Virus record (IMG/VR): IMGVR_UViG_3300048928_000238
Location: 1 to 23,009 of that record
DNA: 23,009 nt
Reading direction: 5' to 3' (one strand)
Source of the DNA: a virus
The notes under the pieces were generated by a model. It did no database searches and was not told where the DNA came from. It worked only from the letters and a program-made list of their open reading frames with translations. The translations under genes were made by a program, and so were the position numbers. Positions 3,405-22,379 of the stretch are shown here, in pieces; position 1 is the stretch's first letter, and the number at the start of each line of letters is the position of its first letter.

Positions 3405-3427
3405 CTAAAAGGGAGGGCATAGCCCTC
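3405..3427 (-). terminator. Attenuator hairpin downstream of the major capsid gene
   Basis: Minus strand: GAGGGC, loop TAT, GCCCTC, then CCTTTTAGG. The stem begins at the capsid stop codon. It probably lets the capsid mRNA accumulate over the downstream connector genes. Confidence 0.7.
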
Positions 3428-4596
3428 TATTTCAGTGTTAATTTTGCCATTGCACCAGTTATTGTCAGCAATGCATCTAAGCGACGGCTTGCCCTAAATC
3501 CTACTTGACCGCTGGCAGCATATAATTCATTTAAACGTTGCATTGCGGTTTGTCCTCGATCAGCAATCCAAATTTTCTTAAAATCACCATACACCATGGC
3601 GGCTTTAGTTGTTGCAAAATCAAATTGCTCCGTAATGTTTACTGCCTTACCAAAAATCATATCAGGTGCTCCAACTTGCGTAGAATTCTGCCAAATGTAC
3701 TGGCCTTGTGCATCTTTAAGCTTCCTGATATTCTTAACAGCTAAGTCAGTAGTGAGAAATTGGGCTCCACTACGATAAGGCACTTTTACTGTGTGCATTA
3801 AATCAATAATGTCATCAAAAGCAATTGCACCCACTGCAGCACTTGTTGTATTTGTAAACTTAGTCAACAAGGTATCCGGTGCCTTTGTTGCATTAACGCG
3901 TGCAGCTGCCAACAACGCAATATCCTCAGCTAATCCAAAAGCCTCACCTAGATCAGTGGATAAAAACCCTTCAATGTCAATTGAGCTATCATCTAAAATT
4001 TCATCAGAAACCTTTACGATTGCGTTAACTTTATATGCCCCAATAGAAGTCTTCCCGAAAGTTGCATCGGTTTCAGTATATGCATCGTTCTCGGCCCCCC
4101 ATGTAGCTACCGTATGCCCTGTCAGTGTCGGAATTTCAACAGTGCTATTAAGAGGTCTGACTGTGCATAACTGGCGCATGATGGACTGTAATCGTATTTC
4201 TGCAAGCAATTGAGCCTCAAAGCTAACAGGTACTAAGTTTGCGCCTTTTGTGGCATCACCTACAGCAAGAGCACGTTTGTCATATTCACGACCACACATT
4301 TTGTTTAAAAAGTTTGTACGGTATTCTTCAGATGCAAAAGGATTCTCTTTTTTACCTTTGGATTCGTCTGCTAACTTCGCGGTATCACCTGCAAGGCGTC
4401 TTTCCATACTTAATTGGGTTTCTAATGCCCTAATTTGCGCATCTTGCTCGGCAATATCCGTTTCAATTCTTGCAATTTGTTCCACTTCTGCCCCATTTAA
4501 ATCTCGCTTCTCAGTCGTGATTAAATCGTGCACGGCTCTCATTTCAGCCACCAAATTAGCTCTTTGTTGCTTTAAACCTTGAATTTTTTGAAACAT
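3427..4596 (-). CDS. Major capsid protein, HK97 fold, with N-terminal delta domain
   Basis: This 389-residue protein has a charged, helical N-terminus (residues 1 to about 75, with Q-Q-R-A-N-L-V-A-E-M-R and I-A-E-Q-D-A-Q-I-R-A-L-E), a predicted coiled-coil scaffolding or delta domain. The mature shell domain follows, with N-L-V-P-V-S-F-E-A-Q-L-L, then T-L-T-G-H-T-V-A-T-W and a C-terminal V-G-F-R-A-S-R-R-L-D-A-L-L. The protease encoded just upstream is expected to remove the delta domain in the prohead. The start ATG overlaps the protease stop as TAATG. A GGAGG lies 10 bases upstream and an attenuator hairpin follows the stop. Confidence 0.92.
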   Translation of the reverse strand: MFQKIQGLKQQRANLVAEMRAVHDLITTEKRDLNGAEVEQIARIETDIAEQDAQIRALETQLSMERRLAGDTAKLADESKGKKENPFASEEYRTNFLNKMCGREYDKRALAVGDATKGANLVPVSFEAQLLAEIRLQSIMRQLCTVRPLNSTVEIPTLTGHTVATWGAENDAYTETDATFGKTSIGAYKVNAIVKVSDEILDDSSIDIEGFLSTDLGEAFGLAEDIALLAAARVNATKAPDTLLTKFTNTTSAAVGAIAFDDIIDLMHTVKVPYRSGAQFLTTDLAVKNIRKLKDAQGQYIWQNSTQVGAPDMIFGKAVNITEQFDFATTKAAMVYGDFKKIWIADRGQTAMQRLNELYAASGQVGFRASRRLDALLTITGAMAKLTLK

Positions 4597-5201
4597 TATA
4601 TACCTACCTCCAATATTTTAATTTTTAGATCTAAAGCCGACCTAATAGCTTTTCCATGATCTTCTTTTTCTGGCTTTTCAAGTCTAATATCGTCTAGCGA
4701 TCTCGTATCTGCAGTAGCTGTCGGATATGCAGGGTAAGTAACAGGAGATACATCATAAATTAAATCAAATTTGACAATATTTCTTATGTCGGTTTCAATT
4801 CCATTCTCTGTTACCGTCTCCCACCTTGTTTCCGATGGAGTAAAGGCAAAACTACTACCATCAATATCACCGCGCTCAATTGATATAATTAATTCATCTG
4901 CTGTTCTCGTTTCTGGTGGATCAATCTCATAAAATAACCCTCGCTCATCTACTGTCAAAGCAAGGGTTCCCGATTTATTACGCCCTAGGACAATGTTACT
5001 GTCATGGTTGAAAAGAGCACGAACGTCTGACCTTTCAATTACACCATCAAATGCCCCGGGTAAAATTCTTTCTTTAAACCATCCACCCAGTAATTCCGAT
5101 AGTTCATTAAACCTAGCAGCATAACCAACAATTTTCTTTTTACCATCATCAGTGGCGCGAATTTCAACTTTGTGTTGTATCGTACGAATTTCTTTCTTTA
5201 T
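4596..5201 (-). CDS. Prohead maturation protease (HK97 family)
   Basis: Typical order of the HK97 prohead protease: K-K-I-V-G-Y-A-A-R-F-N, then E-R-I-L-P-G-A-F-D, the catalytic-His segment V-R-A-L-F-N-H-D, and the Ser segment D-I-D-G-S-S-F-A-F. It cuts the capsid delta domain and itself during head assembly. The start is unusual. The ribosome site GGAGGTGA (5214-5207) is 8 bases from an ATA at 5199-5201, which would give the family-like N-terminus M-K-K-E-I-R-T. The only standard start, GTG at 5208-5210, lies inside the ribosome site. If GTG is used the protein is 204 residues and begins M-R-K-I-K-K-E. Product call is firm; the start is not. Confidence 0.88.
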   Translation of the reverse strand: MKKEIRTIQHKVEIRATDDGKKKIVGYAARFNELSELLGGWFKERILPGAFDGVIERSDVRALFNHDSNIVLGRNKSGTLALTVDERGLFYEIDPPETRTADELIISIERGDIDGSSFAFTPSETRWETVTENGIETDIRNIVKFDLIYDVSPVTYPAYPTATADTRSLDDIRLEKPEKEDHGKAIRSALDLKIKILEVGI

Positions 5202-5228
5202 TTTCCTCACCTCCCTTCAATTAGGTAT

Positions 5229-5260: not shown

Positions 5261-6508
5261 TTATTTCTTTGGTGGATCGGCAATTGGTGTAGTTTGAGCA
5301 TTTTTACTCGCCCAAAAATCATTGACCAATGAGTTAGGTATCATATTTGCAGGAACATAAAATTCATCGCCACCAGGAACAGGATTTTCGTTTTCCTTGG
5401 CAAGTATCATATTTGTGGTCAAGAATCCGTTGTTTTTACCTACTGCATACGCCTCATACCTGCTTTTTAGATCGCCACGCAATAATGATTCCACTAAAAA
5501 CTCGCTATGATATATTTCGCGCTCTTTATCAATAAAAAGTTTAGTATTTATTTCCTGCTCCCATTTAACCAGCCAAGGAGTTAGGGTATAAATTACAAAC
5601 TCTAAGGATTGATGCTCGATATTATTGTTTGTACTTCGGCTCAAATCACCTACTAAATGAGGCGGAACCCGATAAGCTGCCGCTATTTCCTCACGTTGAA
5701 ATTTCCTAGACTCTAAAAATTGAGCCTTATCATTCGCCATTGTAGACTCTTGATATTTTATATCAGATTCCAAGATCTTTATCGCACCAGCTCTATTTTT
5801 GCTCTTGGTATTCCACGCTTCTTTAAGTCGTTGATAAGCAGGATCGCTTAACTGCTTGTCATATAAAAGCACCGCGCCTGGTTTAGCACCACCAGCGAAG
5901 AAATCAATACCATGGTCTTCTGTTGCCATGCTCAAAGTAATTGCATTTTTAGCTAAATCAATAATTGATTCACTAACAAGTCCATCAAGGCTCGGACTTG
6001 GAATATATAGCACTTCATCAGCATGCAGGGCGTATTGCACACCATCGATAACTGTCAAATACCACAACTTGCCATTGTCATCAAAAGCTGGCTGAGTGGC
6101 CCCTGCTTTTAATGGCATAATCTCAGTCACCTTACCATCATTATCGTAACGAATAACAGCATAAGCCCCTTTATATAACAATGCTTGATACATCATACAT
6201 TCTCTAAACTGGTATGCTGTCATAAATTGATTTGTTTTTGTATGTAGGATGTAATATAAGTTATGACTTGTGGCTCTCTCTTTGCCTCTTGGTTTAAGGT
6301 TTTTGTATGTTATGAGTGATAGACTTGCAATTGACTCTGCAAGCACTCTACAACATGCCAAGACTGTAATAACCTTAATCGCTGATTTAGGGTTTACTGA
6401 TATACCATCAATTTTAGTTATTTCACCAGTACGCAAGGGATTGTCACTGCTTGTATCCGCTAAAGTCCACGCCCTATATGCTAATTTTGCTCTATCTAAT
6501 AAATTCGT
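5261..6508 (-). CDS. Portal protein (HK97 gp3-like)
   Basis: Contains V-L-A-C-C-R-V-L-A-E-S-I-A-S-L, then L-L-Y-K-G-A-Y-A-V-I-R-Y-D, the loop G-A-V-L-L-Y-D-K and, near the end, F-Q-R-E-E-I-A-A-A-Y-R-V-P-P-H-L-V-G-D, all hallmarks of the HK97 portal family. It forms the dodecameric DNA gate and connector base. The standard TTG at 6434-6436 would truncate the protein and has no ribosome site. The frame stays open upstream to an AAAGGAGGTGG at 6523-6513; 7 bases after its GGAGG sits ACG at 6506-6508, followed by N-L-L-D-R-A-K-L-A-Y-R-A-W, a normal portal N-terminus. I place the start at ACG, giving 415 residues. That start is an inference. Confidence 0.9.
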   Translation of the reverse strand, partial: TNLLDRAKLAYRAWTLADTSSDNPLRTGEITKIDGISVNPKSAIKVITVLACCRVLAESIASLSLITYKNLKPRGKERATSHNLYYILHTKTNQFMTAYQFRECMMYQALLYKGAYAVIRYDNDGKVTEIMPLKAGATQPAFDDNGKLWYLTVIDGVQYALHADEVLYIPSPSLDGLVSESIIDLAKNAITLSMATEDHGIDFFAGGAKPGAVLLYDKQLSDPAYQRLKEAWNTKSKNRAGAIKILESDIKYQESTMANDKAQFLESRKFQREEIAAAYRVPPHLVGDLSRSTNNNIEHQSLEFVIYTLTPWLVKWEQEINTKLFIDKEREIYHSEFLVESLLRGDLKSRYEAYAVGKNNGFLTTNMILAKENENPVPGGDEFYVPANMIPNSLVNDFWASKNAQTTPIADPPKK

Positions 6509-6588: not shown

Positions 6589-8328
6589 TTAAATTTCTCT
6601 TACATCGTAATTGTCATAAGCACTGCCTGTATCTTCTGCTTTTACTATTGCTCTTGTATGAGCGTTTATTAGGCTGGCAATTGGATCTATACGCTCAATA
6701 GATTTAGCCTTATCAAGCTGTATATTTTCTTTATCATCTTGCCTAGTCACTGCATTACTTACTGCCCAACCCAATACTGGGTTACCATCATGTAGCACAT
6801 TCCTTTGATATACCGATTCCCTGAAGCTTTTCGTCGGTTCAGATAGAGTTTTCATCCCTTGTATAACCTCAATACATTCATAACCATCATCCATCATATC
6901 ATTAGCGATGGCCTGCGCACTCCAAGGATCAAAACAAGCTTCTTTTGGTATTAGACCTCGCCTTTTTAGTTCTTCTTTAATATATTTATGTACAAATCTA
7001 TAATCGACAACAGAACCAGGGATAACAGTAATCCACCTTTTCTCAATCCACAAATCATATGGGACTTTATCTGTATTTCTTTTTGCTGCTACTGTATCAG
7101 CTGGCATAAATGAATGAGATAGCACAATAAACTTACCATCGTCTATCGGAATATCAAATGATACGGATGTTAAGTCTATTTTTGACGACATGTCAATACC
7201 AATATAACATTCTTTGCCCGTTAGATCAGGGATTTCATCACCTTTACAAGCTGCCCATTTGTCCATATTCATGTAACCATTAGGGCGTTGATTAATCCAC
7301 ACATTCATGTTTTTTGTGAGGAAATCACGCATTTTTTCAGGTGCTTCTAACGCTAGTTGCAATCTCTCCCTAATATATTTAATACCCTCAGGATAAGAGC
7401 AACTAATTGGATTTGCTTTTAACCAAGCCCTTTCATCGCTAATATCGTCAATCATATTACCTTCATCATCTGTGTCCATCTCATTAATCATTACAAAATA
7501 ATTATCAGCATTAAATTCAATAGAAGGGTTTAATATTTTACTGACCATAATATATTCAACCCTATAGCATGGATGGGCCAAATTAAATCCTGCTGTAGTT
7601 ATAACTCCAATCAATGGTTGCGTCCTAGCACCCATACCAGAATCTATAATGTCATACATTTCGCTTGTTTCATGTGCATGATATTCGTCAATAATTCCAC
7701 ATTGAGGATTAAGACCATCCCCGCCCTTTTTATCTTCTTTACTTAGGGCTTTCATAAATGATCCGCTCTTAGGATGGATTATCCTACCATATGCGGTTTT
7801 AAACTTCCCTGCAAGGTCAGCGCAATTATTGAGCATGGCCTCTGTTTCTTCCCAAACTATTTTAGCTTGTTCAGTTTTAGTAGCTGCGCAATATACTTCA
7901 CTTGCTCCTTCACCCATAGCCATTAATTCATAGCTACCAACAGTTCCAAGACTTTGGGACTTTGCATTTTTACGTCCAACTTGCCAGTAGAATTTTGTAA
8001 ATCTACGATATCCGGTATCACGGTGTATCCATCCGTAGATATTCCCGAATATGAACTTCTGTATTATATGAGGGTCAATATGTTGTCCCCGCAGCACACC
8101 TTTGCGATGTTTGAATAACCTCATCCAATCCAAAAAACGCTCAGCAGGTTGGAATTCACTATCATCGACAACTAATACTGGATTAAAAATATATGGAAAT
8201 TCATCTGTATTCTCATGTTCTAAGTCGCGCAAGAATCGCATGCAGGCCCATTTATTTTTTAAACAGGCGACAATCTTTCCAGCAATAACGTCCTTGCTAT
8301 ATTTTATAAGTTCCTCTCTTAACGTCAT
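6589..8328 (-). CDS. terL: Terminase large subunit
   Basis: This 579-residue packaging motor is complete. The ATPase half has a Walker A variant G-R-K-N-A-K-S-Q (about 118-125), Walker B G-I-I-D-E-Y-H (about 211-217) and coupling motif I-T-T-A-G (about 243-247). The nuclease half has Y-I-G-I-D-M-S-S (Asp about 379) and A-C-F-D-P-W-S (Asp about 466), candidate metal ligands. It pumps DNA into proheads and cuts concatemers. The start overlaps the small-subunit stop as ATGA. Between its stop and the portal ribosome site lie short hairpins (GGATG/CATCC and AGAC/GTCT) ahead of a T-run, which may attenuate. Confidence 0.95.
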   Translation of the reverse strand: MTLREELIKYSKDVIAGKIVACLKNKWACMRFLRDLEHENTDEFPYIFNPVLVVDDSEFQPAERFLDWMRLFKHRKGVLRGQHIDPHIIQKFIFGNIYGWIHRDTGYRRFTKFYWQVGRKNAKSQSLGTVGSYELMAMGEGASEVYCAATKTEQAKIVWEETEAMLNNCADLAGKFKTAYGRIIHPKSGSFMKALSKEDKKGGDGLNPQCGIIDEYHAHETSEMYDIIDSGMGARTQPLIGVITTAGFNLAHPCYRVEYIMVSKILNPSIEFNADNYFVMINEMDTDDEGNMIDDISDERAWLKANPISCSYPEGIKYIRERLQLALEAPEKMRDFLTKNMNVWINQRPNGYMNMDKWAACKGDEIPDLTGKECYIGIDMSSKIDLTSVSFDIPIDDGKFIVLSHSFMPADTVAAKRNTDKVPYDLWIEKRWITVIPGSVVDYRFVHKYIKEELKRRGLIPKEACFDPWSAQAIANDMMDDGYECIEVIQGMKTLSEPTKSFRESVYQRNVLHDGNPVLGWAVSNAVTRQDDKENIQLDKAKSIERIDPIASLINAHTRAIVKAEDTGSAYDNYDVREI

Positions 8329-8870
8329 ACATTACCAAACCCCTTCTTTTTCAAGGGATTTTCAGGTTCTTTTTCTTTTTTGGGTACGTTTTTAATTTTC
8401 GAGAGTGGATTTAAAAAGAGTCTATCTTCCATTTTGATAAGCATATCCATTTTTTTATTAATAGCAGAATCTATTTGCATAGCGGGATTAAATTTTACAA
8501 TGCAATCCAATGCCTTAACTAATTCTTCGTCAAGAGTAGACTCTATTTCATCATATCTCACCTCAAAATTATTAATCTTTTGCTTTTGTTCCAGTAATGA
8601 AATATACTCACTAAATGTCATACAGTACCTTGCCAATAATCCAATATCACCACTAGAAACAAAGTCAATATCTTTATAAATCTTAGTAATTTCTTTCCAT
8701 TTCGCGTATGAATTTATATCTTTTTTTATAAACTCTGGACACTTTAATTTTGTTTCACCTATTTTTATTTCAGCTTTTTTTCTGCGCTCAATCTCAGCTT
8801 TTGTAAGGCGATTCGGGTTCCCTTGGGCAATTTGCAATGTTATTGGTTTTCCATTTCTACCTCCCATCAT
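8325..8870 (-). CDS. terS: Terminase small subunit (P27 family type)
   Basis: This 181-residue protein begins M-M-G-G-R-N-G-K-P-I-T-L, then G-N-P-N-R-L-T-K-A-E-I-E-R-R, and has L-K-C-P-E-F-I-K-K-D-I-N-S-Y-A-K-W-K-E-I, the layout of the P27-type small terminase. It recognises the packaging start site and feeds DNA to TerL, which overlaps its stop by four bases. Two adjacent ATGs (8870, 8867) follow GAGGTGAG; the second has the better spacing. A GC-rich palindrome lies about 90 bases upstream. Confidence 0.85.
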   Translation of the reverse strand: MMGGRNGKPITLQIAQGNPNRLTKAEIERRKKAEIKIGETKLKCPEFIKKDINSYAKWKEITKIYKDIDFVSSGDIGLLARYCMTFSEYISLLEQKQKINNFEVRYDEIESTLDEELVKALDCIVKFNPAMQIDSAINKKMDMLIKMEDRLFLNPLSKIKNVPKKEKEPENPLKKKGFGNV

Positions 8871-9521: not shown

Positions 9522-9857
9522 TTATCTTGGATGTTCCTTTGCCTGGCATGATCGGCAAACCGCTTCGAAATTACTACTAGCAAGCCGAGCACCACCATCC
9601 TTGATATGTTTAATATGATGTACCAACTCACTAGGACGCTCACCGCATCTCTGACATTTAGGATGCTTACGCCTATGCTCTAGGCTGGCCTGCCTCCATG
9701 CATTGCTACCATAGAAACGTTGCTCCTTAATATCAGTTCTCGACTTACGATAATCAATATGGACCTGTTGCTTATGTTTATCGCAATATCCTGACTTATC
9801 ATTCGTTAACTGATTGCATCCACGATACCGACATTGACGTTTAAGTTTCATTGGCAT
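9522..9857 (-). CDS. HNH endonuclease of the packaging module
   Basis: This 111-residue protein starts M-P-M-K-L-K-R-Q-C-R-Y-R-G-C. It has the HNH core C-Q-R-C-G-E-R-P-S-E-L-V-H-H-I-K-H-I (about 72-89), then L-A-S-S-N-F-E-A-V-C-R-S-C-Q-A-K-E-H (about 91-108), including two zinc-binding CxxC pairs. Small HNH proteins next to the terminase genes are needed with TerL for specific cos cleavage in HK97-type phages. A homing endonuclease now lies between this gene and terS. Confidence 0.85.
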   Translation of the reverse strand: MPMKLKRQCRYRGCNQLTNDKSGYCDKHKQQVHIDYRKSRTDIKEQRFYGSNAWRQASLEHRRKHPKCQRCGERPSELVHHIKHIKDGGARLASSNFEAVCRSCQAKEHPR

Positions 9858-9991
9858 TAATCTTCACCCACTTCTTTTATTCACTCTCTCATCATCTATC
9901 ACATTATTCTCAAATTACAACAACCAAGCCTAATTATGACATTATCTGCACAATTTATGTTGTATAACGGAAAATGAAAGGAGGTGGTATT

Positions 9992-10330
9992 ATGTCAAAA
10001 ACACTTTGGACTATTAGTTTTAAATCCAATAATCAGGACTTTGGTTCAGGAGTTATAACTCTTGACGGTGACCAAATTTATGGTGGCGATGTAGGGTATT
10101 ATTATCTTGGTAAATTCGTTACCACAGGAAATTCAATTAGTGCATCGGCTACCATAACTAAACACAATCCTTCTGTAGTATCAATCTTTGGGAATTTCAC
10201 TTCATTTAAACTAGCCTTAACTGGTAATGGCAGTATAAGTGACGGTCATTTTTCATTATCTGGTCATGTTGAGGAGTATCCACAAATGACAATGACAGCC
10301 ACTATGCGTAAGCTTGTAAATTTAGCATGA
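9992..10330 (+). CDS. GrlR-like regulatory/cargo protein
   Basis: Translation from the ATG at 9992, 7 bases after AAGGAGG, gives 112 residues; an earlier ATG at 9974 lies upstream of the ribosome site. It has L-W-T-I-S-F-K-S-N, then G-S-G-V-I-T-L-D-G-D-Q-I-Y-G-G-D-V-G-Y-Y-Y-L-G-K-F, and ends L-T-G-N-G-S-I-S-D-G-H-F-S-L-S-G-H-V. This matches from memory the GrlR-like beta-barrel family, first known as a negative regulator of type III secretion genes but widespread as small stand-alone proteins. It is monocistronic on the strand opposite to all neighbours and has its own terminator, so it is probably cargo expressed from the prophage. The in vivo target is unknown. Confidence 0.65.
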   Translation: MSKTLWTISFKSNNQDFGSGVITLDGDQIYGGDVGYYYLGKFVTTGNSISASATITKHNPSVVSIFGNFTSFKLALTGNGSISDGHFSLSGHVEEYPQMTMTATMRKLVNLA

Positions 10331-10336
10331 TTCCTT

Positions 10337-10359
10337 AAAACCGCCTCGATGGCGGTTTT
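10337..10359. terminator. Bidirectional terminator between convergent genes
   Basis: AAAACCGCC, loop TCGAT, GGCGGTTTT. The stem is flanked by A and T runs on both sides, so it can stop the GrlR-like gene on the plus strand and the gene at 10397-10780 on the minus strand. If it stops minus transcription, the packaging genes need a separate promoter in 9858-9991 or antitermination. Confidence 0.85.
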
Positions 10360-10396
10360 CCTTTTGCCTCTTTTCGCATGTACTTCTTTTCACCCT

Positions 10397-10780
10397 TTAA
10401 TAACTTACCTGTTCACTCTTAACCATAGCTTTTAGCGTATCCCTTTGACCTTGAAGTTGAGTAAGCCGATCAATTGCTTTTAATTCTACTGCCTTTGCAT
10501 CAAGCCAAAGTTGCTTTAATCGCTTGACCTCACTATCTGCATTAGCTATTGCATTGATCATTGTTTGGTGGTTTGGTTTAATACCCACACTTCGCATGGC
10601 AAGTATCTTTGCACTTGATAGTGCATCATCAAATTTAGATCTAGCATTACCTCTGTCTATTTTATATTGCGTAACCTTAGGAGCAGCCTTAGTAATTTCA
10701 TTCTCTACCATAGATAACAACCGCCTGTAATCTTGCAGTCCCGCTTTCTCTGGTATGAGTATTTCTTTTTCCTCAGACAT
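10397..10780 (-). CDS. Phage hypothetical protein, coiled-coil, acidic N-terminus
   Basis: I do not recognise this protein by name. Translation from the ATG of M-S-E-E-K-E-I gives 127 residues; in-frame starts at 10789 (GTG) and 10786 (ATG) are also possible. The body is Ala/Lys/Asp-rich and helical (S-K-F-D-D-A-L-S-S-A-K, later A-D-S-E-V-K-R-L-K-Q-L-W-L-D-A-K-A-V-E-L-K-A), suggesting a long helical hairpin. It overlaps the end of the upstream HNH-like gene by 8 bases, so the two are co-translated. Position between late control genes and packaging suggests a role in DNA packaging or nucleoid handling, which is not proved. Confidence 0.6.
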   Translation of the reverse strand: MSEEKEILIPEKAGLQDYRRLLSMVENEITKAAPKVTQYKIDRGNARSKFDDALSSAKILAMRSVGIKPNHQTMINAIANADSEVKRLKQLWLDAKAVELKAIDRLTQLQGQRDTLKAMVKSEQVSY

Positions 10781-13325: not shown

Positions 13326-14324
13326 TTATTTGTTTTTAAAGATATCTTCACCCATAACCTTAAATACTTCTTTATCTACTACCTTTACCAATACCGATAA
13401 GATCCTCATATACTCCGTGAGTTCAGTTTTCTCGGTTTCATTCTTACTATCGTGCTTTGCAATGCTTAATCTTTGTTCGAGAATGCCTTTAATTTTTTTG
13501 GCAGCATTGACTGTTAATTGTGCCGTTTCTGTGTTGTACTTATTTTCTTTACTGTTTACCTTTGCTACATCCTTTAAGCTTGTAGATCCTTTTTCTTTGT
13601 GCTGCTCATAGACCGCCTTTTGGTCTTCTTTCGTCAACTTTGATAACTCAACAGCGGTGGAGAACTTTATATTGTCTTGCTTTAATTCTTCCTTGAACTC
13701 GGTAGTTAAATTATCGTTTATACTTTCTATCCTGCCGACCTGAGTAGTAGATACATTTAATGCTTCTGCTAATAACTCACGCACCCGCCCAGGTAGCTCA
13801 TGTTCCTTCTTATACTCTTTTAGCAATCCCTTAAGCTGTGACAATTGCTCAACCTTTTCCCAATCGCTTAATTGCCTTGTTGTAGAGTTAGTGTATATTA
13901 GCAAGATTCGCTCTCGTATTTCATCTAGGCTTGTTTCAATACGGCATGGCACTAATTCAAATTGCTTTTTGCCTTCTTCGACTAGTTGTAGGCTTGCAAG
14001 TCTACGACGATGGCCTGCAATGACTTTGTATTTATCAGTATTTGGTATCCTTTTAACTGTAAGGTTCTGATGAATCCCCATAATTTCTATAGAGTCCTTT
14101 AAGTTAGCAACGTCTTCTACTGAATAAAAGTTATCTTGTGATGGTTCTAATTGATAGACACTGATTAGGTCTACCTTAAAATCATTACCCGCCCTTGTTG
14201 TTTCTGCTGAATCAGTATTCAGTGCTTCAGGCCCTTTTGATTTTGAGTTTAATAGACTGGTTAGATTAAACTTACCTTTTGCCACCACTCCACCCCCTTT
14301 TACAAATGTGTCCGATTTGGACAC
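13326..14324 (-). CDS. parB: ParB-family partition protein
   Basis: This 332-residue DNA-binding CTPase-type protein loads on a centromere and is moved by ParA. The N-terminal domain has L-I-S-V-Y-Q-L-E-P-S-Q-D-N-F, then D-L-K-x-S-I-E-I-M-G-I-H-Q-N-L-T-V, and the ParB box V-I-A-G-H-R-R-R-L-A-S (about 103-113). The HTH follows with L-A-E-A-L-N-V-S-T-T-Q-V-G-R-I near 186-200. The C-terminal part is Lys/Glu-rich for dimerisation. It starts at GTG 14324, 7 bases after the parA stop; AGGAG overlaps the parA stop. The first codons lie inside a perfect 25-bp dyad. Residues 1-50 are a low-complexity linker usual for plasmid ParB. Confidence 0.9.
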   Translation of the reverse strand: MSKSDTFVKGGGVVAKGKFNLTSLLNSKSKGPEALNTDSAETTRAGNDFKVDLISVYQLEPSQDNFYSVEDVANLKDSIEIMGIHQNLTVKRIPNTDKYKVIAGHRRRLASLQLVEEGKKQFELVPCRIETSLDEIRERILLIYTNSTTRQLSDWEKVEQLSQLKGLLKEYKKEHELPGRVRELLAEALNVSTTQVGRIESINDNLTTEFKEELKQDNIKFSTAVELSKLTKEDQKAVYEQHKEKGSTSLKDVAKVNSKENKYNTETAQLTVNAAKKIKGILEQRLSIAKHDSKNETEKTELTEYMRILSVLVKVVDKEVFKVMGEDIFKNK

Positions 14325-14328
14325 ATTT
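14304..14328. promoter_or_regulatory. Perfect 25-bp dyad over the parB start (candidate parS/operator)
   Basis: Arms AAATGTGTCC and GGACACATTT with a 5-base centre (GATTT). It covers the parB GTG and first codons and ends 2 bases before the parA stop. It may be the ParB-binding centromere or operator, or an mRNA hairpin that hides the parB start and couples it to parA translation. No second full copy was seen in the window; one arm (TGTGTCC) recurs near 7468. Confidence 0.6.
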
Positions 14329-14330
14329 TT

Positions 14331-15089
14331 CTATTCTCCTAAGTACTCTTTTACAAAGTTCATATAATCTATTGCCGCTCCGCAACGCCTTGAGTATTCA
14401 ATGATTGGCTGACTTGTAAAGGTGCTTTCATCTATTTTCTCTGTTCTTCTGATATGAGTTGCAAAAATAGGATAGTTTCCTTGATTGTTTAAATGGTCTT
14501 CCCCTTGTACATTTACATCGTTCTTAGTAAATTGAGTAACTAGGCATCCCTTGAAGTTTAATGTTGGGTTAAATTCTCGGATTGCTTCAAACTGCTCTGT
14601 TAGCTCTTTTAGTCCGTCAAACGAAAACTGATCTATTTTTATTGGCACTATTACTTCATTGGCAGCAACTAGACTATTTATTACACTGATATTGATATCT
14701 GGTGCATTGTCTATAATGCAGTAATCATATTCTGATTCGATTTGTTGTAAAGCTTTTTTTAAGATGGTTTGCTGTTGCCTTGAAACGTCCATGATAATTT
14801 GTAAGTTAGCATTTAGAAGGTTCATATTTGCACTGATTAAATCTAGGTTGGCGTATTGTGTGTGATGAATAACCTTATGCGTATCATATTTCTTTTCAAT
14901 AAGGAGATCCGCTATACTTGGCATTTCATAACTATGTAGCTTTAAAAATTTGGACGTGTTCCCTTGCTTGTCGTTATCTATGAGCACTACCCGCTTATTA
15001 TAGGTAGTGGCTAATATGTGAGCCATGTTGATGGAGGTTATGGTTTTTGCCACGCCTCCCTTTAAGTTGATTAAGGCTATGATCTTCAT
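14331..15089 (-). CDS. parA: ParA-family partition ATPase
   Basis: This 252-residue Walker-type ATPase drives plasmid or episome segregation. It has the deviant Walker A K-G-G-V-A-K-T (residues 10-16), the A' motif V-V-L-I-D-N-D-K-Q-G-N-T, and Walker B Y-C-I-I-D-N-A-P-D. There is no N-terminal HTH domain, so it belongs to the short class where ParB does the DNA binding and autoregulation. ParB follows immediately. Tailed phages that carry such a pair usually keep their prophage as a plasmid. Confidence 0.93.
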   Translation of the reverse strand: MKIIALINLKGGVAKTITSINMAHILATTYNKRVVLIDNDKQGNTSKFLKLHSYEMPSIADLLIEKKYDTHKVIHHTQYANLDLISANMNLLNANLQIIMDVSRQQQTILKKALQQIESEYDYCIIDNAPDINISVINSLVAANEVIVPIKIDQFSFDGLKELTEQFEAIREFNPTLNFKGCLVTQFTKNDVNVQGEDHLNNQGNYPIFATHIRRTEKIDESTFTSQPIIEYSRRCGAAIDYMNFVKEYLGE

Positions 15090-15102
15090 GTGACACCATC
15101 CT

Positions 15103-15249
15103 TTATGAGTTAACTATCCACGTCTTGTTTTCATTACGTATCAAGCAAGTTTTTTTATATTTACAATCCCCGCATTTATCTTTTATGCCTTTTACCGATT
15201 CTTCTACCCGCCCACGTCTCTCTGTTAGTTCTTCTTTAGCCAGTGCCAT
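15103..15249 (-). CDS. 48-residue Cys-containing protein upstream of parA
   Basis: An ATG after GGGAGG (spacing 10) opens a 48-codon frame beginning M-A-L-A-K-E-E-L-T-E-R-R-G-R-V. Near the C-terminus it has K-C-G-D-C-K-Y-K-K-T-C-L, a compact three-Cys knuckle. The stop is 13 bases before the parA ATG, so it is probably the first gene of the parAB operon. Size and charge suggest a DNA-binding or metal-binding accessory protein. It is not recognised by family. Confidence 0.55.
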   Translation of the reverse strand: MALAKEELTERRGRVEESVKGIKDKCGDCKYKKTCLIRNENKTWIVNS

Positions 15250-15390
15250 TATGTTTTTACCTCCCAAGCTCCGTCAATATATGCGAAAATACAATTCATG
15301 TCTTTACTAAAAACTATCTCCGTTGATTGGTGAACGCTCGTTATGTACTGACTTAGGGTTTTATCACTCTCCCCCCCTCAATCTCAACAT
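15249..15390 (-). pseudogene. Short frame broken at a run of seven G's
   Basis: An ATG at 15390 opens M-L-R-L-R-G-G-E-*. In the next frame, after the G7 run (15371-15377), codons stay open for 38 triplets (K-T-L-S-Q-Y-I-T-S-V-H-Q-S-T, ending W-E-V-K-T) and stop as TAATG on the start of the following gene. Removing one G would join the two into a 47-residue peptide. It may be a frameshifted gene, a slippage-controlled gene, a sequencing error, or no gene: the G-rich run also looks like a ribosome site with no start codon behind it. Confidence 0.3.
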
Positions 15391-15478
15391 TTAAACATTT
15401 ATTTACATTATCAATTAAAATGTGGGAGGAAAAATTTTCTTAATATTAGAATATAGCTATAAAAAGGAGTGTGTTTTT

Positions 15479-15772
15479 ATGGATTCATCTGATAGCGTTG
15501 CTTATTTAGAGGGTATTGAACAGGCTTTAGAAAAATCCGCAGAAAAATTTAGCAATACAACCTATTCTATTGACTTTAGTCATGTTGATCATCACTTGCT
15601 AGAGGATAAAACAATTTCTGCTTTTACGTCAAGAATCATTGTAGATGGTTATGAATATGGTGCTGGCATACCAGTAAATATTGCTACAAAGGTTACTTTT
15701 GATGAAATTGCAGCTTATTTAATCGGACGCGGCGTGGAACAGTATTTATGTCAAATGTCAAATGATAGATAA
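15479..15772 (+). CDS. Isolated plus-strand hypothetical protein
   Basis: The ATG at 15479, 8 bases after AAGGAG, gives 97 residues; the longer open frame from 15422 lacks a better site. It is acidic and begins M-D-S-S-D-S-V-A-Y-L-E-G-I-E-Q-A-L. It later has F-S-H-V-D-H-H-L-L-E-D-K-T-I-S-A-F and T-F-D-E-I-A-A-Y-L-I-G-R-G-V-E-Q-Y. I do not recognise it. It stands alone on the strand opposite to its neighbours with its own terminator, so it is probably prophage-expressed cargo. The acidic character would suit a DNA-mimic or inhibitor, which is a guess. Confidence 0.6.
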   Translation: MDSSDSVAYLEGIEQALEKSAEKFSNTTYSIDFSHVDHHLLEDKTISAFTSRIIVDGYEYGAGIPVNIATKVTFDEIAAYLIGRGVEQYLCQMSNDR

Positions 15773-15786
15773 ATTGTGTTTTTTAT

Positions 15787-15815
15787 TAGCTCTCCTCTAG
15801 AGGGCTATTTTTTTA
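15787..15815 (+). terminator. Terminator of the plus-strand cargo gene
   Basis: TAGCTCTC, loop CTCTA, GAGGGCTA (one T-G pair), then TTTTTTT. A near-copy occurs at 17933-17957. Confidence 0.85.
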
Positions 15816-15850
15816 TCCCGCCCTCCCCAATATAACCTCTCTCCTACCAA

Positions 15851-16756
15851 TTAACCTGATACTGGCCACCCATGTGACTTATAATCTTCAAACTTGCAAA
15901 ACTTCCTAAGCGGTGGCACTGAATTTGACCATCTTTGTAATGCTCTAATCTTTATAGGAGCATTATATTTGTCATAAATCATGACATATGGATTAACGCC
16001 TAAGTCAGTCAAGATTTTAATTCGTTTCATATCTTGTTCAAAAGTTGTGTTATAGTTAGTGAGTATAAAAAACGTTAGCCGATCGGGATGAATGCCAGCA
16101 GCACAAAGTAGATTAATGCCCTTTACTACCTTTTTTGTAATGCCTAAATTGTCATAAGCGAAATGAAGTCGTTTTTCATGTCTCATAGCTGCCAGCAATT
16201 CTGCGTTTTGCTTGTTGACTAGACGAATATCATTTCCTTGAGTAAAATCCACCTTGATTCTCATATCTATGATCTGATTGGCAACCTGCTCCCATATCAG
16301 GGATGCCATTGCATTGTTATCCAGCAGTGTGAGCCTATCACTTAAAGGGTTTAATAAATCCGCTGGCATGGCTACATGATGGATAAATCCTTCTTTTTCA
16401 GGTACTACGCAGAATTTACAATTCCGTATGCAACCTCTGCTAGTAAATCCCATTCCGTAATCAATGCCATAAAGTGTATAATCAGGCTTCATATTTTCAA
16501 TGATTGGTGGCAATCTCTTTTTCAGCTCCCATCCAGTGCCGCCAACCTCCGCGCCCAGGCTTGCATAATATTCAGCTTGCTTACGATTCTCTGTAAATAC
16601 CACTGCAACATATACCTTGTCCACTGGACCAATAAACATATCTTGATAGTCATATGGGAATATAACTTCATGCCCTAATGACTTGTGATATGCAGATATT
16701 TTCATTAAGGCCAAATTAGGTAGCTTCCCATCAATTTGAATTAATCCGATTCTCAA
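15851..16756 (-). CDS. Radical SAM protein coupled to the DNA methyltransferase
   Basis: This 301-residue protein has the radical-SAM signature R-G-C-I-R-N-C-K-F-C (Cys 109, 113, 116), which binds a [4Fe-4S] cluster and cleaves S-adenosylmethionine. Residues 1-90 resemble the N-terminal cobalamin-binding-like domain of B12-type radical SAM proteins (M-R-I-G-L-I-Q-I-D-G, L-A-L-M-K-I-S-A-Y-H), without a clear D-x-H-x-x-G. It starts at TTG 16756 overlapping the methyltransferase TGA, so one ribosome can make both. The substrate is unknown; coupling suggests the methylated cytosine or another base, but a tRNA or protein substrate remains possible. Confidence 0.75.
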   Translation of the reverse strand: MRIGLIQIDGKLPNLALMKISAYHKSLGHEVIFPYDYQDMFIGPVDKVYVAVVFTENRKQAEYYASLGAEVGGTGWELKKRLPPIIENMKPDYTLYGIDYGMGFTSRGCIRNCKFCVVPEKEGFIHHVAMPADLLNPLSDRLTLLDNNAMASLIWEQVANQIIDMRIKVDFTQGNDIRLVNKQNAELLAAMRHEKRLHFAYDNLGITKKVVKGINLLCAAGIHPDRLTFFILTNYNTTFEQDMKRIKILTDLGVNPYVMIYDKYNAPIKIRALQRWSNSVPPLRKFCKFEDYKSHGWPVSG

Positions 16757-17823
16757 CTTATCACCCGCCCATATTCAATTTCAGCTATTGCTTTAAATAT
16801 TGGTAATGGTTGAAGCGTATACACGGCATTACCTAACGCCTTTAACCTTTTAGCCCGATTCTTTATTCCAGTTGCAACCCTTGGAGGTTCATAATCATAT
16901 TGAGGCTGTCCCATAAATGCAGGATTTCCAGGCCAAGGTATAGGGTTATCACATTCTATATCTGTCCACCCTATAGGAAACCCCATAAGGCACTCTACCC
17001 AATCAGGATTTAATTGACCGCCAACCATTTTTGCATATTCGGCTGGAGTTATTGCATCGCGAATGTATTTATCGCTTCTAATCGCTCCACTTGCAGTATG
17101 AGTACCCCACAAATTTCCTGTACGCATTACTGCACCAACTACACTATCCCTATCTTGTTGACTTGGTGGTAATGTACTGTTTTTACCGTCCTGTGCTGTA
17201 GGTGTAGGCCACATTACCCCACATGTCTCACCTGGTCTACTAGATTTATTGCCGACTGCCCAGTTATCAGGCATTTCTCGTATAGTTCCTTTGACCTCGG
17301 CCCCCGCTCTCCGTCGCTCGCTTGCGGAGTGCGCCAGTATAAAGACTCTTTCTCTTTTATGTGAGGCTCCAACATCACAAGCTCCGTAGCAACTCCATCC
17401 AACACCATGCCCCATTTCGGCCAAGTCCCTAAGAACGTCTCCGAACAATTCTCCTCCGTCCACAGAGAGAATTCCTCGAACATTTTCACCGACCATCCAC
17501 CTGGCATTAATTTCGCATGTGATCCTTGCCATTTCAGGCCACAAGTACCGTTCATCAGCTTTTCCTTTACGTTTTCCGGCCATGCTGTTACCCTGACAAG
17601 GGAATCCACCAGCGCAGCCATCGATCTTTCCAATTCCGTCTTTTCTAAGCCTCTCTGCTGTAACTTCTCGTATGTCTTCATATATTGGCACCCCTTGAAA
17701 TCTTTTATTTAATATGGATTGGCAGTATGGATTTTGCTCAACAAAGGCTACTGTTTCAAACCCAACCATGTGAGCCGCTAAGTCTAGACCACCTATCCCT
17801 GAGAATAAGCTAATCCACTTCAA
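16753..17823 (-). CDS. C5-cytosine DNA methyltransferase (Dcm-like)
   Basis: This 356-residue enzyme adds a methyl to C5 of cytosine in DNA. Visible motifs: I, F-S-G-I-G-G-L-D-L-A (7-16); IV, G-G-F-P-C-Q-G-N-S with catalytic Cys 76; VI, E-N-V-R-G-I-L (113-119); VIII, S-H-K-R-E-R-V-F-I-L-A (154-164); X, L-K-A-L-G-N-A-V near the C-terminus. Before motif X lies M-W-P-T-P-T-A-Q-D-G and E-C-L-M-G-F-P-I-G-W, as in many phage methylases. Start is TTG 17823 after GGGAGGGGTGAG. No restriction enzyme gene is nearby, so it probably protects phage DNA. A second long frame overlaps its 5' half. Confidence 0.9.
   Translation of the reverse strand: MKWISLFSGIGGLDLAAHMVGFETVAFVEQNPYCQSILNKRFQGVPIYEDIREVTAERLRKDGIGKIDGCAGGFPCQGNSMAGKRKGKADERYLWPEMARITCEINARWMVGENVRGILSVDGGELFGDVLRDLAEMGHGVGWSCYGACDVGASHKRERVFILAHSASERRRAGAEVKGTIREMPDNWAVGNKSSRPGETCGVMWPTPTAQDGKNSTLPPSQQDRDSVVGAVMRTGNLWGTHTASGAIRSDKYIRDAITPAEYAKMVGGQLNPDWVECLMGFPIGWTDIECDNPIPWPGNPAFMGQPQYDYEPPRVATGIKNRAKRLKALGNAVYTLQPLPIFKAIAEIEYGRVIS
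17214..17681 (-). CDS. Overlapping +1-frame ORF inside the methyltransferase, methylase-associated-like
   Basis: A 155-codon frame with ATG 17681, about 9 bases after AAGGGG, lies wholly inside the methyltransferase gene. It reads S-L-W-T-E-E-N, then G-T-W-P-K-W-G-M-V-L-D-G-V, then L-Y-W-R-T-P-Q-A-S-D-G-E-R-G-P. These resemble from memory the W-P-R-x-G-M-x-x-D-G and T-P-x-A-S-D-G-E pattern in the C-terminal part of phage methylases and their partner proteins. The main frame has its own equivalent further on, so this is not simply a frameshifted tail. It may be a genuine overprinted gene or a chance open frame in GC-richer DNA. Confidence 0.35.
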   Translation of the reverse strand: MKTYEKLQQRGLEKTELERSMAALVDSLVRVTAWPENVKEKLMNGTCGLKWQGSHAKLMPGGWSVKMFEEFSLWTEENCSETFLGTWPKWGMVLDGVATELVMLEPHIKEKESLYWRTPQASDGERGPRSKELYEKCLITGQSAINLVDQVRHVG

Positions 17824-17932
17824 ATACTCACCCCTCCCTCACACTCTAATGTATATAACCCCTACTTATTGGGGATAATTATGTTGACGCATACTCACGC
17901 GTTACATAACTCAACTCTCCCATTCTTGGTAT

Positions 17933-17958
17933 TAGCTCTCTTTTAGAGGGCCCTTTTT
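17933..17958 (+). terminator. Plus-strand terminator without an evident gene
   Basis: AGCTCTC, loop TTTTA, GAGGGC (one T-G pair), then CCTTTTTTA. It closely matches the terminator at 15787. The stretch 17824-17971 has only a doubtful 21-codon plus-strand frame (17881-17946) that ends inside the stem. It may be a small RNA terminator or a relic of a lost cargo gene. Confidence 0.55.
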
Positions 17959-17971
17959 TATGTCTTGAATA

Positions 17972-18043
17972 TTAAGGCATTCCCCGCCCCCGCTGCATGA
18001 GTTTTTCTGCCTTTTTACTACTCCGCTGCCGAGGCTTCTTCAA
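17972..18043 (-). CDS. 23-residue basic peptide after ssb
   Basis: A TTG at 18043 overlaps the ssb TGA (TTGA), the same coupling seen between the methyltransferase and radical-SAM genes. The peptide begins K-K-P-R-Q-R-S-S-K-K-A-E-K and ends R-G-R-G-M-P. It has a net charge of about +9, so nucleic-acid binding is plausible. It may be too short to be real; GAGGAAG lies at a usable distance. Confidence 0.35.
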   Translation of the reverse strand: MKKPRQRSSKKAEKLMQRGRGMP

Positions 18044-18435
18044 AAAGGGATTTCTTCCTCAGGATGTATTTCATATCCAAACCCATCCATTGGACTTTGC
18101 TTACTAGTTGCGGCAGTGTTACTGGATGGATTTTTAGTATCTAAAAATTCTATGTTCTGGGCTACTACGTCGGCAGCTCTCCGTTTTTGACCGTCTTTTT
18201 CATAATCACGAATTTGTAAACGTCCTTCCACTAGTACACGACGGCCTTTTGTAAGGTTGTTTCCACAAACCTCAGCTAACTTGTCCCATACTACGACAGG
18301 AATAAAATCAGCGCGTTTGTTCTCACCGTATCCTGTATCTACTGCCACACTAAAACTTGCAACGGCCTTCCCTGTTTGCGTGTATCTGACATCTGGGTCT
18401 CTAGTTAAACGCCCCACTATGATCACTTTGTTCAA
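18040..18435 (-). CDS. ssb: Single-stranded DNA-binding protein
   Basis: This 131-residue protein begins N-K-V-I-I-V-G-R-L-T-R-D-P-D-V-R-Y-T (OB-fold strands 1-2). It continues with V-A-S-F-S-V-A-V-D, F-I-P-V-V-V-W-D-K-L-A-E and G-R-R-V-L-V-E-G-R-L-Q-I-R, and ends in the acidic tip E-E-E-I-P-F that recruits replication partners. It starts at TTG 18435 after GGAAGGGGG. It lies between rep and the methyltransferase, so it probably coats single strands made by rolling-circle replication. A 34-bp dyad lies just upstream. Confidence 0.95.
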   Translation of the reverse strand: MNKVIIVGRLTRDPDVRYTQTGKAVASFSVAVDTGYGENKRADFIPVVVWDKLAEVCGNNLTKGRRVLVEGRLQIRDYEKDGQKRRAADVVAQNIEFLDTKNPSSNTAATSKQSPMDGFGYEIHPEEEIPF

Positions 18436-18462
18436 ATTATTTCCCCCTTCCTTTTGCCGTTA

Positions 18463-18496
18463 TTTTGTCGGAATTTCTATAAACTATCTGACAAAA
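18463..18496. promoter_or_regulatory. 34-bp dyad, copy 1 (before ssb)
   Basis: TTTTGTC and GACAAAA arms separated by 20 bases; the inner part ends AACTATCT. Copy 2 at 20738-20771 has the same spacing and the shared blocks TTTTGTCGGA and AACTATCTGACA. Being upstream of two separate minus-strand genes fits an operator for an early regulator; a Rep-binding or nick site is also possible. Confidence 0.65.
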
Positions 18497-18514
18497 ATAT
18501 CTGATACTATGTAA

Positions 18515-19273
18515 TTAAGAAACATCCTCATTACTGTGTATTTTTACTAAAATATAATGCTGATATTGGTGTCCATCGTCGTTATAGCCTTCATATGTAT
18601 ATTGCTTATCTATGTAGTAACCTTTTGGGGCTTTGGGTGCTCGCCATTTTTTTGCACTGACTTTTTTTACTTTTATTTTTGGTTTTTTTAGATTACTGCT
18701 TTTGCAAAATCGTTGAGCATAAATGCGACGGTTTTCATCATAAAAGCTTTCAAGAGTATTTTTTATGATATAGGAGGCAAGATTACCGTGATTTTGGCGG
18801 CTATCCATCGGTGTAAATTCTATTCTTGGGTACGGTGTTTCTTCTGTTCCTGCAATTCGTCTCCAAATGTCTGCTATTTTTTGTGCCTCAATATAATTCA
18901 TAACAAGGTGAAAATGAACTGCTCCACGTTTCCCTAGTCCCGCACTCATGATGTATTTTAGTTCTTTATTTGATTTTCGGTATACTTTTCGCACATCTCG
19001 GAAAAACTTAGCTATGTCTGCTTTTGCTTTTTCTTTTGTCGGTCTTACGTTTGCGGGGTAAGTTAGATAAATCCACCAATCTCCAGCTTTAAAATTTGTG
19101 TTAATAAGCCAACGGCATTTATTCTCGGCATTTTTATCATTTTGTCGTTTTTGCTTATCTGATGTTTTATTTGATTTTGGAGCAATTATAATTTTTAAAT
19201 TTTTCCTACCAGATTTATATTTTGTAATTTCAATTGTGTCTCCAGCTTTAACTTCCTTTTCCCAATATCCCAT
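18515..19273 (-). CDS. HUH-type rolling-circle replication initiator
   Basis: This 252-residue protein has the three motifs of HUH endonucleases in order: motif I W-I-Y-L-T-Y-P (67-73), motif II G-A-V-H-F-H-L-V (117-124; metal-binding His 120 and 122), and motif III A-S-Y-I-I-K-N (166-172; nicking Tyr 168). It would nick one strand at an origin and stay attached to the 5' end. The C-terminal part is Lys/Tyr-rich with no helicase motifs, so a host helicase is needed. It starts at ATG 19273; the upstream 290 bases form a leader that contains a divergent small RNA gene. ssb follows. Tailed phages using such Reps are uncommon. Confidence 0.82.
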   Translation of the reverse strand: MGYWEKEVKAGDTIEITKYKSGRKNLKIIIAPKSNKTSDKQKRQNDKNAENKCRWLINTNFKAGDWWIYLTYPANVRPTKEKAKADIAKFFRDVRKVYRKSNKELKYIMSAGLGKRGAVHFHLVMNYIEAQKIADIWRRIAGTEETPYPRIEFTPMDSRQNHGNLASYIIKNTLESFYDENRRIYAQRFCKSSNLKKPKIKVKKVSAKKWRAPKAPKGYYIDKQYTYEGYNDDGHQYQHYILVKIHSNEDVS

Positions 19274-19385
19274 ATCGTCAACCTCTTGATTTATATTTCT
19301 ACTAAGTATTGATTTAACTGTACTTTATTGATAACGTGTGTCGTTAAATTAATACTTTTATCAAGGTATTTAAGCTCTTTTTCGG

Positions 19386-19414
19386 CTGACTTTTTACGCA
19401 TAATGTGCTATAAT
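19386..19414 (+). promoter_or_regulatory. Plus-strand promoter in the rep leader
   Basis: CTGACT, 17-base spacer, TATAAT, with an extended TG before the -10. It is a near-consensus sigma-A promoter reading away from rep, so its RNA is antisense to the rep leader. Confidence 0.75.
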
Positions 19415-19420
19415 AAATTA

Positions 19421-19520
19421 CGTAAAACGTGCATGTCAACCTTAAATTTATTCTTCTACTAGGTCTTTCTAGTAAACCCTTACAAGCTATTTGCAGTAGC
19501 GTGTAAGGGTTTTAGTTTGT
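19421..19520 (+). ncRNA. Candidate antisense RNA over the rep leader (ctRNA-like)
   Basis: A roughly 100-base transcript runs from the promoter at 19386-19414 to a terminator. A small hairpin (TACTAG/CTAGTA, 19457-19476) precedes a long one: AAACCCTTACA (19474-19484) pairs with TGTAAGGGTTT (19502-19512), with inner GCTA/TAGC, then TTTTAGTTTGT. The two hairpins share 3 bases at 19474-19476, so they are partly alternative. There is no ORF with a ribosome site. In rolling-circle plasmids a counter-transcribed RNA in the rep leader sets copy number; position, direction and size fit that role. The long hairpin could instead be part of the replication origin. Confidence 0.55.
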
Positions 19521-21662: not shown

Positions 21663-21899
21663 TTAACTAGCTTTTGGGTTTGGAGAGTTTAACAAATTTA
21701 ATTTGTTAAACACATCAAAAAAAAGCACTTCCATTGAAATTTTAGAGTCTATTTCTATTTGTTTCATTACCATTAAACTAGGAATCGCTCCTCCCAGCTC
21801 CCATTTACTCCATGTTTGCTGTGTAACTCCATACATCTCCGCCATTTTCTTCTGAGATCGATTTCCTCTAAATTCAATAAGCTTGTTTCTTATGAGCAT
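21663..21899 (-). CDS. Cro-like XRE-family repressor
   Basis: From the ATG at 21899 (after AAGGGGG) it has 78 residues. The HTH is N-R-S-Q-K-K-M-A-E-M-Y-G-V-T-Q-Q-T-W-S-K-W-E-L-G (about 12-35), with recognition helix T-Q-Q-T-W-S-K-W. It is transcribed leftward from the operator region, the position of Cro, and would repress the opposite repressor promoter to allow lytic growth. Near its 3' end the DNA itself is a 25-bp operator-like palindrome that encodes F-N-K-L-N-L-L-N. Confidence 0.8.
   Translation of the reverse strand: MLIRNKLIEFRGNRSQKKMAEMYGVTQQTWSKWELGGAIPSLMVMKQIEIDSKISMEVLFFDVFNKLNLLNSPNPKAS
21687..21711. promoter_or_regulatory. 25-bp perfect operator-like palindrome inside the cro-like gene
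   Basis: Arms GTTTAACAAATT and AATTTGTTAAAC around a central T. It contains ACAAATTTAATTTGT, identical to the operator at 21917-21931, and lies about 240 bases from the main operators, suitable for DNA looping or a downstream roadblock. Confidence 0.75.
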
Positions 21900-21916
21900 C
21901 TTATAACCCCCTTGCG

Positions 21917-22018
21917 ACAAATTTAATTTGTTAACTTGCTTTTATAATATACAAATTTAAATTGTATGTCAATAGTTTTACAAATTAAATTTGTTTTAGT
22001 TTCACAAATATAAATTGT
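21917..22018. promoter_or_regulatory. Four lysogeny-switch operators
   Basis: Consensus ACAAATTTAAATTGT-like 15-bp dyads at 21917-21931, 21951-21965, 21980-21994 and 22004-22018. The second sits in the spacer of the leftward promoter and the fourth in the spacer of the rightward promoter, so repressor and Cro-like protein can compete for them as in other temperate phages. Confidence 0.85.
21944..21972 (-). promoter_or_regulatory. Leftward early promoter (PR-like)
   Basis: Minus strand: TTGACA, 17-base spacer, TATTAT. The spacer contains an operator. It drives the cro-like gene and probably the whole early operon. Confidence 0.85.
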
Positions 22019-22043: not shown

Positions 22044-22379
22044 ATGCTTCACGAGCGAATTAAAGCAGAAAGAAACAAAAAAGGACTTTCGCAAAGAGAG
22101 TTAAGTGATTATTTCAACGTAACACAACAAGCTGTTGGCACTTGGGAAACTGGTAAAGCGTCGCCAGACGCAATTACTTTATCTAAATTAGCCGACTTCT
22201 TTGGCGTTACGACAGATTATCTTCTAGGTCGCAGTGATTATCAAAAAAGCGAAAAAAACTTTGAAACGGTTGCAGCTCATCGTACTGACGACCCATCAAA
22301 CGATCTACCAGAAGAAGCTCGTAAATCGTTAGAAGACTTTAAGAAATTCTTATATGAAAAACACGGGCTGAAATACTAA
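22044..22379 (+). CDS. Lysogeny repressor, XRE family (CI-like)
   Basis: This 111-residue protein has a single N-terminal HTH: K-G-L-S-Q-R-E-L-S-D-Y-F-N-V-T-Q-Q-A-V-G-T-W-E-T-G (about 13-37), then L-A-D-F-F-G-V-T-T-D-Y-L-L-G, as in Gram-positive phage repressors. The C-terminal 40 residues are short and charged. There is no LexA-type peptidase domain, so induction must work through the ImmA-like protein downstream. It is translated from ATG 22044 after AGGGAG, with four operators upstream. Confidence 0.88.
   Translation: MLHERIKAERNKKGLSQRELSDYFNVTQQAVGTWETGKASPDAITLSKLADFFGVTTDYLLGRSDYQKSEKNFETVAAHRTDDPSNDLPEEARKSLEDFKKFLYEKHGLKY

Follow-up and report, generated by a model that had tools for sequence, protein, structure and literature searches.

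An HUH replication initiator and a ParAB partition module in a probably integrating, siphovirus-like phage of Bacillota

The DNA analysed here (the window, G000) is the linear 23,009-bp IMG/VR record IMGVR_UViG_3300048928_000238, which is best read as part of a temperate Bacillota phage of siphovirus-like type; the ends for tail, lysis and integration are missing from the record. On the minus strand it carries the genes for a rolling-circle replication initiator of the HUH type (Rep, 18515-19273), a single-strand DNA-binding protein (SSB, 18040-18435), the partition ATPase ParA (14331-15089) and the centromere-binding protein ParB (13326-14324). The initial annotation had taken this combination, in a window without a complete integrase, as the mark of a phage-plasmid. 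Every feature it named was found where it had been placed, and the pairing of an HUH Rep with ParAB in a tailed phage proved to be a conserved module. The step from there to a phage-plasmid was not borne out; the record ends at the site where the relatives encode their integrase.

The 252-residue Rep passed the curated cut-off of the Pfam profile PF23343 (REP_ORF2-G2P; E=1.5e-13, 51.3 bits against a cut-off of 27.8) and matched phrog_3584, 'replication initiation protein', with 1.1e-49. Three HUH motifs had been read in this protein. Motif 2 (HxH) and motif 3 (YxxK) are genuine, because H120, H122, Y168 and K171 were invariant in an alignment of 40 sequences, whereas motif 1 (LTYP) was only loosely conserved there. 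The AlphaFold2 (AF2) model was confident, with a predicted local distance difference test (pLDDT) score of 92. Its best matches among the PDB folds were all weak (E 0.005-0.1, none <0.001); they included the HUH nucleases parvovirus NS1, Helitron, pMV158 RepB, adeno-associated virus (AAV) Rep and circovirus Rep, and also other ferredoxin-like folds. A sequence search of the PDB gave no useful relative. From the profile matches and the conserved residues we conclude that the protein is a replication initiator of the HUH (Y1) family.

The neighbouring genes were identified by Pfam and PHROG matches, which confirmed an ssb gene near rep and ParA and ParB close by. SSB matched PF00436 (5.9e-33) and was 87% identical to the SSB of a chromosomal prophage, G053. 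ParA matched PF13614 (4.4e-45) and phrog_164 and has the Walker-type motif KGGVAKT. ParB matched ParB_N (5.7e-6) and phrog_4715 (3.3e-69); its real start probably lies some 14 codons further downstream than the called GTG. The parA and parB genes are adjacent on the same strand and form one operon.

At the junction of parA and parB lies the palindrome AAATGTGTCC-N5-GGACACATTT (14304-14328). Its core, TGTGTCC-N5-GGACACA, was present at the equal position in the window and in ten relatives, with an imperfect copy in G002. Paired changes were observed at three positions, T-A to C-G, G-C to A-T and C-G to T-A. When the local sequence was shuffled by mononucleotides, an equally good palindrome arose in at most 2 of 300 shuffles for 10 of the 11 sites and in 128 of 300 for G002. 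The site was the only one of its kind in the window at up to 3 mismatches, and the chromosomal-type parS TGTTTCACGTGAAACA was absent from the window. We regard the palindrome as a candidate parS on the basis of its position and conservation. A 10-base motif, GGGCGGGATA, also occurred in all eight ParAB regions compared, with up to five copies in a contig of Pelosinus propionicus.

A hairpin, AAACCCTTACACGCTA-CTGCAAA-TAGCTTGTAAGGGTTT, was found 200-239 nt upstream of rep (19474-19512, minus strand) and gave z = -6.8 when folded as DNA. The sequence AAAC(C/G)CTTAC...GTAAG(G/C)GTTT, or a near match, preceded rep in 7/7 close members (the window and six relatives), and RNAalifold detected compensatory changes within the stem. 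Four members had the loop CTGCAAA or CGGCAAA; in G002 it was reversed, and G005 and G346 had other loops. Inverted repeats occurred upstream of rep in 30 of 42 family records compared with 24% of control segments, and a loop of the C[TG]GnAA type in 11 of 42 compared with 0.7%; this enrichment is support and not proof, since the loop consensus was picked after viewing the data and the records scanned are related. Under a strict scan, 12 of the 42 records had no hairpin, G004 and G005 included, which counts against the origin reading. In several relatives the hairpin also follows the stop codon of the gene before it and could partly be a terminator. That it is merely the transcription terminator of that gene is unlikely, because the stem is trailed by just about three T, its sequence is kept among genomes with strongly diverged Reps (about 30-40% identical to the window Rep) and the C[TG]GnAA-type loops are enriched upstream of rep across the family. 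The hairpin is accordingly described here as a candidate rolling-circle double-strand origin, which Rep would nick. Both the candidate origin and the candidate parS are new here. Between the hairpin and rep (19274-19473) two more inverted repeats were observed in the window and in most relatives; they may form a structured leader or serve as an operator for the control of Rep.

The right end of the window encodes a repressor (HTH_3; 22044-22379, plus strand) followed by an ImmA/IrrE-like metallopeptidase (PF06114; 22411-22866, plus strand). A small helix-turn-helix-like protein is encoded divergently from the repressor (21663-21920, minus strand) and is Cro-like by position. The record stops 143 bp past the ImmA gene, and the lack of a complete integrase in the window therefore does not mean that the phage has none. 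In most relatives examined, an integrase was encoded within about 0-2 kb past ImmA. The search with the window's own ImmA led to four neighbourhoods that were read, and a tyrosine integrase lay downstream in three of them (L148, L149 and L151). The simplest view is that the window phage has an integrase too, most likely encoded just beyond the right end and cut off by the record.

Searches with ParB and Rep gave several dozen related records, and several of the gene names used for relatives come from inspection of the sequences. For Rep, a single sequence retrieved nothing from the viral contigs, whereas an alignment of five sequences retrieved 46 loci. The genes for Rep, SSB, ParA and ParB were in identical order in G001, G002, G004, G005 (=G347), G053 and G346. 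About 14 records contained Rep and ParB together with a tyrosine or large serine integrase, and a mutual exclusion of ParAB and integrase was rejected on this ground. The integrase sits past the repressor end in these relatives. Pfam identified it as a large serine recombinase in three of them (G001, G002 and G053) and as a tyrosine integrase in G346. Tyrosine integrases matching PF00589 were found in G004, G005, G021, G022, G024 and G031, and serine recombinases matching PF00239 in G007, G008, G021 and G022, so that G021 and G022 have both kinds. ParB was matched in G021, G022, G024 and G031. For G044 and G045 the integrase assignment came from similarity alone.

Three of the relatives are located in chromosomes. 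G346 lies between exact copies of a 45-bp repeat that overlaps a tRNA-Lys gene, and G347 between exact copies of a 52-bp repeat that overlaps a tRNA-Arg gene; the G347 stretch is close to the end of a 5.2-Mb contig, and the G005 proteins that were compared were identical to those of G347. The G053 prophage lies inside a contig of 5,115,410 bp, where it separates sigG from the genes sigE, spoIIGA and ftsZ (names by sequence inspection). At its tested boundaries no repeat of at least 12 bp was found, and shorter matches were uninformative. At the end of the G001 contig, the recombinase has a truncated GidA-like gene as its neighbour. The nearest integrated relatives of the window phage are from genomes around Pelosinus (Negativicutes). 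An integrase with attL and attR had been named initially as the result that would contradict a plasmid state; integrases, in two cases with tRNA-derived repeats, were found for close relatives, and the window ends short of this region of its own phage. The G053 prophage (L120-L123) extends over about 7.4-54.5 kb of an 80-kb stretch, its serine integrase abuts sigE, and a ParM/StbA-like gene was noted by eye at 9916-10743.

The module appears to be shared among different virion types, since some relatives with the same gene order have contractile-tail-type genes in their lists of open reading frames (ORFs), which were read by eye. In the Pelosinus propionicus contig (G003:C66), ParAB, SSB and their neighbours were up to 88% identical to those of the window. 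The Rep profile had no match in this contig, and a DnaB_2-type replication protein (L088:588-1628) is encoded near the usual place of Rep. The replication module was apparently swapped beneath a constant partition module. A dependence of ParAB on the HUH Rep, and with it a fixed tie to rolling-circle replication, was rejected because ParAB and SSB occur here with a DnaB_2 initiator. The ends of the contig resemble insertion-sequence edges by eye, which makes it uninformative on circularity; one end was tested with Pfam and gave no match.

The Butyrivibrio phages Arawn and Idris (Arawnvirus) and Closwp03 are among the closest known systems; they are tailed, and their Reps belong to the window's family (36-37% identity). 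Like the window phage, Arawn and Closwp03 have SSB genes, but Arawn has no ParB match. The Arawn protein gp26 (L002:19853-20908, NC_048848.1), is annotated as 'hypothetical protein' but is a tyrosine integrase by its match to PF00589 (1.5e-19). This is relevant to the doubt that has been published over the lysogeny of Arawn (PMC7372960). An Arawn-like record of 34,471 bp, G025 (L110, L111), encodes both an HUH Rep and ParAB, and its reverse-strand ORF at the position of the Arawn integrase had no Pfam match.

Taken together, the results are best explained by an integrating, temperate siphovirus-like phage whose excised circle is replicated by the HUH Rep and partitioned with ParABS, a reading to which we assign a probability of about 0.75. 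The lysogen would owe its integration to a site-specific recombinase whose gene most likely lies just past the right end of the window. Upon excision or infection, Rep would nick the candidate origin, the hairpin some 200 bp ahead of its own gene, and rolling-circle copying would begin, with the displaced strand covered by SSB. The HNH endonuclease and the small and large terminase subunits (TerS and TerL) would package the resulting circles or concatemers. ParA and ParB, via the single parS palindrome between their genes, would prevent the loss of the unintegrated circle at division, and such a protection of the excised circle is our preferred explanation for the use of ParABS in an integrating phage. 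Several results weigh against this reading. Neither a tyrosine (PF00589) nor a serine (PF00239) recombinase was found in the window. No viral contig matched its right end exactly, so that no overlapping contig was found to extend it. In the neighbourhood L150, which has a degenerate ImmA, similarity revealed no integrase in the stretch read. Integrase-free members of the family may exist, since G025 had no match to PF00589 or PF00239.

The integration itself is shared by an explanation that differs only in the role of ParAB. Here an integrating phage would have an ordinary lytic module, in which Rep serves lytic DNA synthesis only, in the style of P2 gpA, while ParAB acts as a regulator or is a remnant with no partition function. 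Many phages with a Rep of this family have an integrase and no ParB match, and the Pelosinus contig has ParAB together with a DnaB_2-type replication protein; both observations speak for this explanation. However, ParA, ParB and the co-located palindrome have stayed linked in members that range from Negativicutes-related to clostridial ones. This suggests that partition, or at the least the binding of ParB to its site, is under selection. We consider this explanation possible, though the odds are against it.

A bolder extension of the integrating phage with a partitioned circle is a facultative plasmid life, in which the excised genome of widespread integrating Bacillota phages would be a rolling-circle, ParABS-partitioned episome and members like G025 would be integrase-free phage-plasmids. 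If this is true, one lysogen could switch between the chromosomal and the plasmid state; we hold it only tentatively and rather doubt it.

The proposal of the initial annotation was a true phage-plasmid without an integrase, whose lysogen is a circular episome copied by the HUH Rep and partitioned by ParABS. The window does have the full plasmid-type kit of Rep, SSB, ParA, ParB, candidate parS and candidate origin without an integrase, and thus the phage-plasmid trait of a replication initiator and partition genes in a phage genome. G025 combines Rep and ParAB with no detected integrase and is the best candidate for a real phage-plasmid among these records. In part of the cluster A mycobacteriophages, moreover, parABS is found in place of the integrase (PMC7157519). 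A search of 72,556 plasmid records in PLSDB by protein similarity only gave 1 match for Rep and 23 for ParB, with no record matching both. With this result, the end of the window 143 bp past ImmA, the integrases of some 14 records with Rep and ParB and the chromosomal location of G053, G346 and G347, a true phage-plasmid is improbable.

Partition genes are commonly taken as a sign of a plasmid prophage. The joint occurrence of HUH Rep, ParAB and integrase in about 14 records makes ParAB alone unfit for calling phage-plasmids in Bacillota. P1-type phage-plasmids are temperate phages with partition genes whose lysogens are plasmids without integration, whereas the window's relatives integrate. 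In P2-type phages an HUH Rep (gpA) powers the rolling-circle replication of a tailed phage, but this Rep is of another family and P2 is not known to have ParABS. The parABS-bearing cluster A mycobacteriophages, such as RedRock, are likewise temperate and combine parABS with prophage replication functions; parABS replaces the integrase there, while both co-occur in the window's relatives, and the parS loci of RedRock consist of an 8-bp motif in eight direct repeats, as opposed to one candidate palindrome in the window. An experimental precedent for the proposed cycle is provided by the SXT/R391 integrative and conjugative elements, where the excised circle replicates via the relaxase and is maintained by an active partition system (PMC4489591). 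These elements resemble the proposed phage in being integrated and in having a replicating excised circle with active partition, and differ from it as conjugative elements with the relaxase TraI and with SrpMRC. Within the library searched, our literature search found nothing relevant on HUH rolling-circle siphovirus prophages or on ParABS together with an integrated prophage and rolling-circle replication. The candidate parS and the candidate origin are short defined sites, and a role of partition in an integrating phage becomes directly testable with them.

The remaining genes of the window include the head and packaging genes on the minus strand, which confirmed the HK97-type structural genes of the initial annotation. 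They encode the HK97-type major head protein (3427-4596), the head maturation protease (4596-5210), the portal protein (5261-6436), TerL (6589-8328), TerS (8325-8870) and the HNH endonuclease of the packaging module (9522-9857). A major tail protein was also found, and the tape measure and later tail genes fall outside the window. Direct terminal repeats were absent from the window and from ten related contigs, and an Rfam scan of the window found no family. Between ssb and parA, the window encodes a cytosine-5 DNA methyltransferase (16753-17823) and a radical-SAM-type phage protein (phrog_9298; 15851-16756). Proteins similar to this pair were also observed in G045 and G047.

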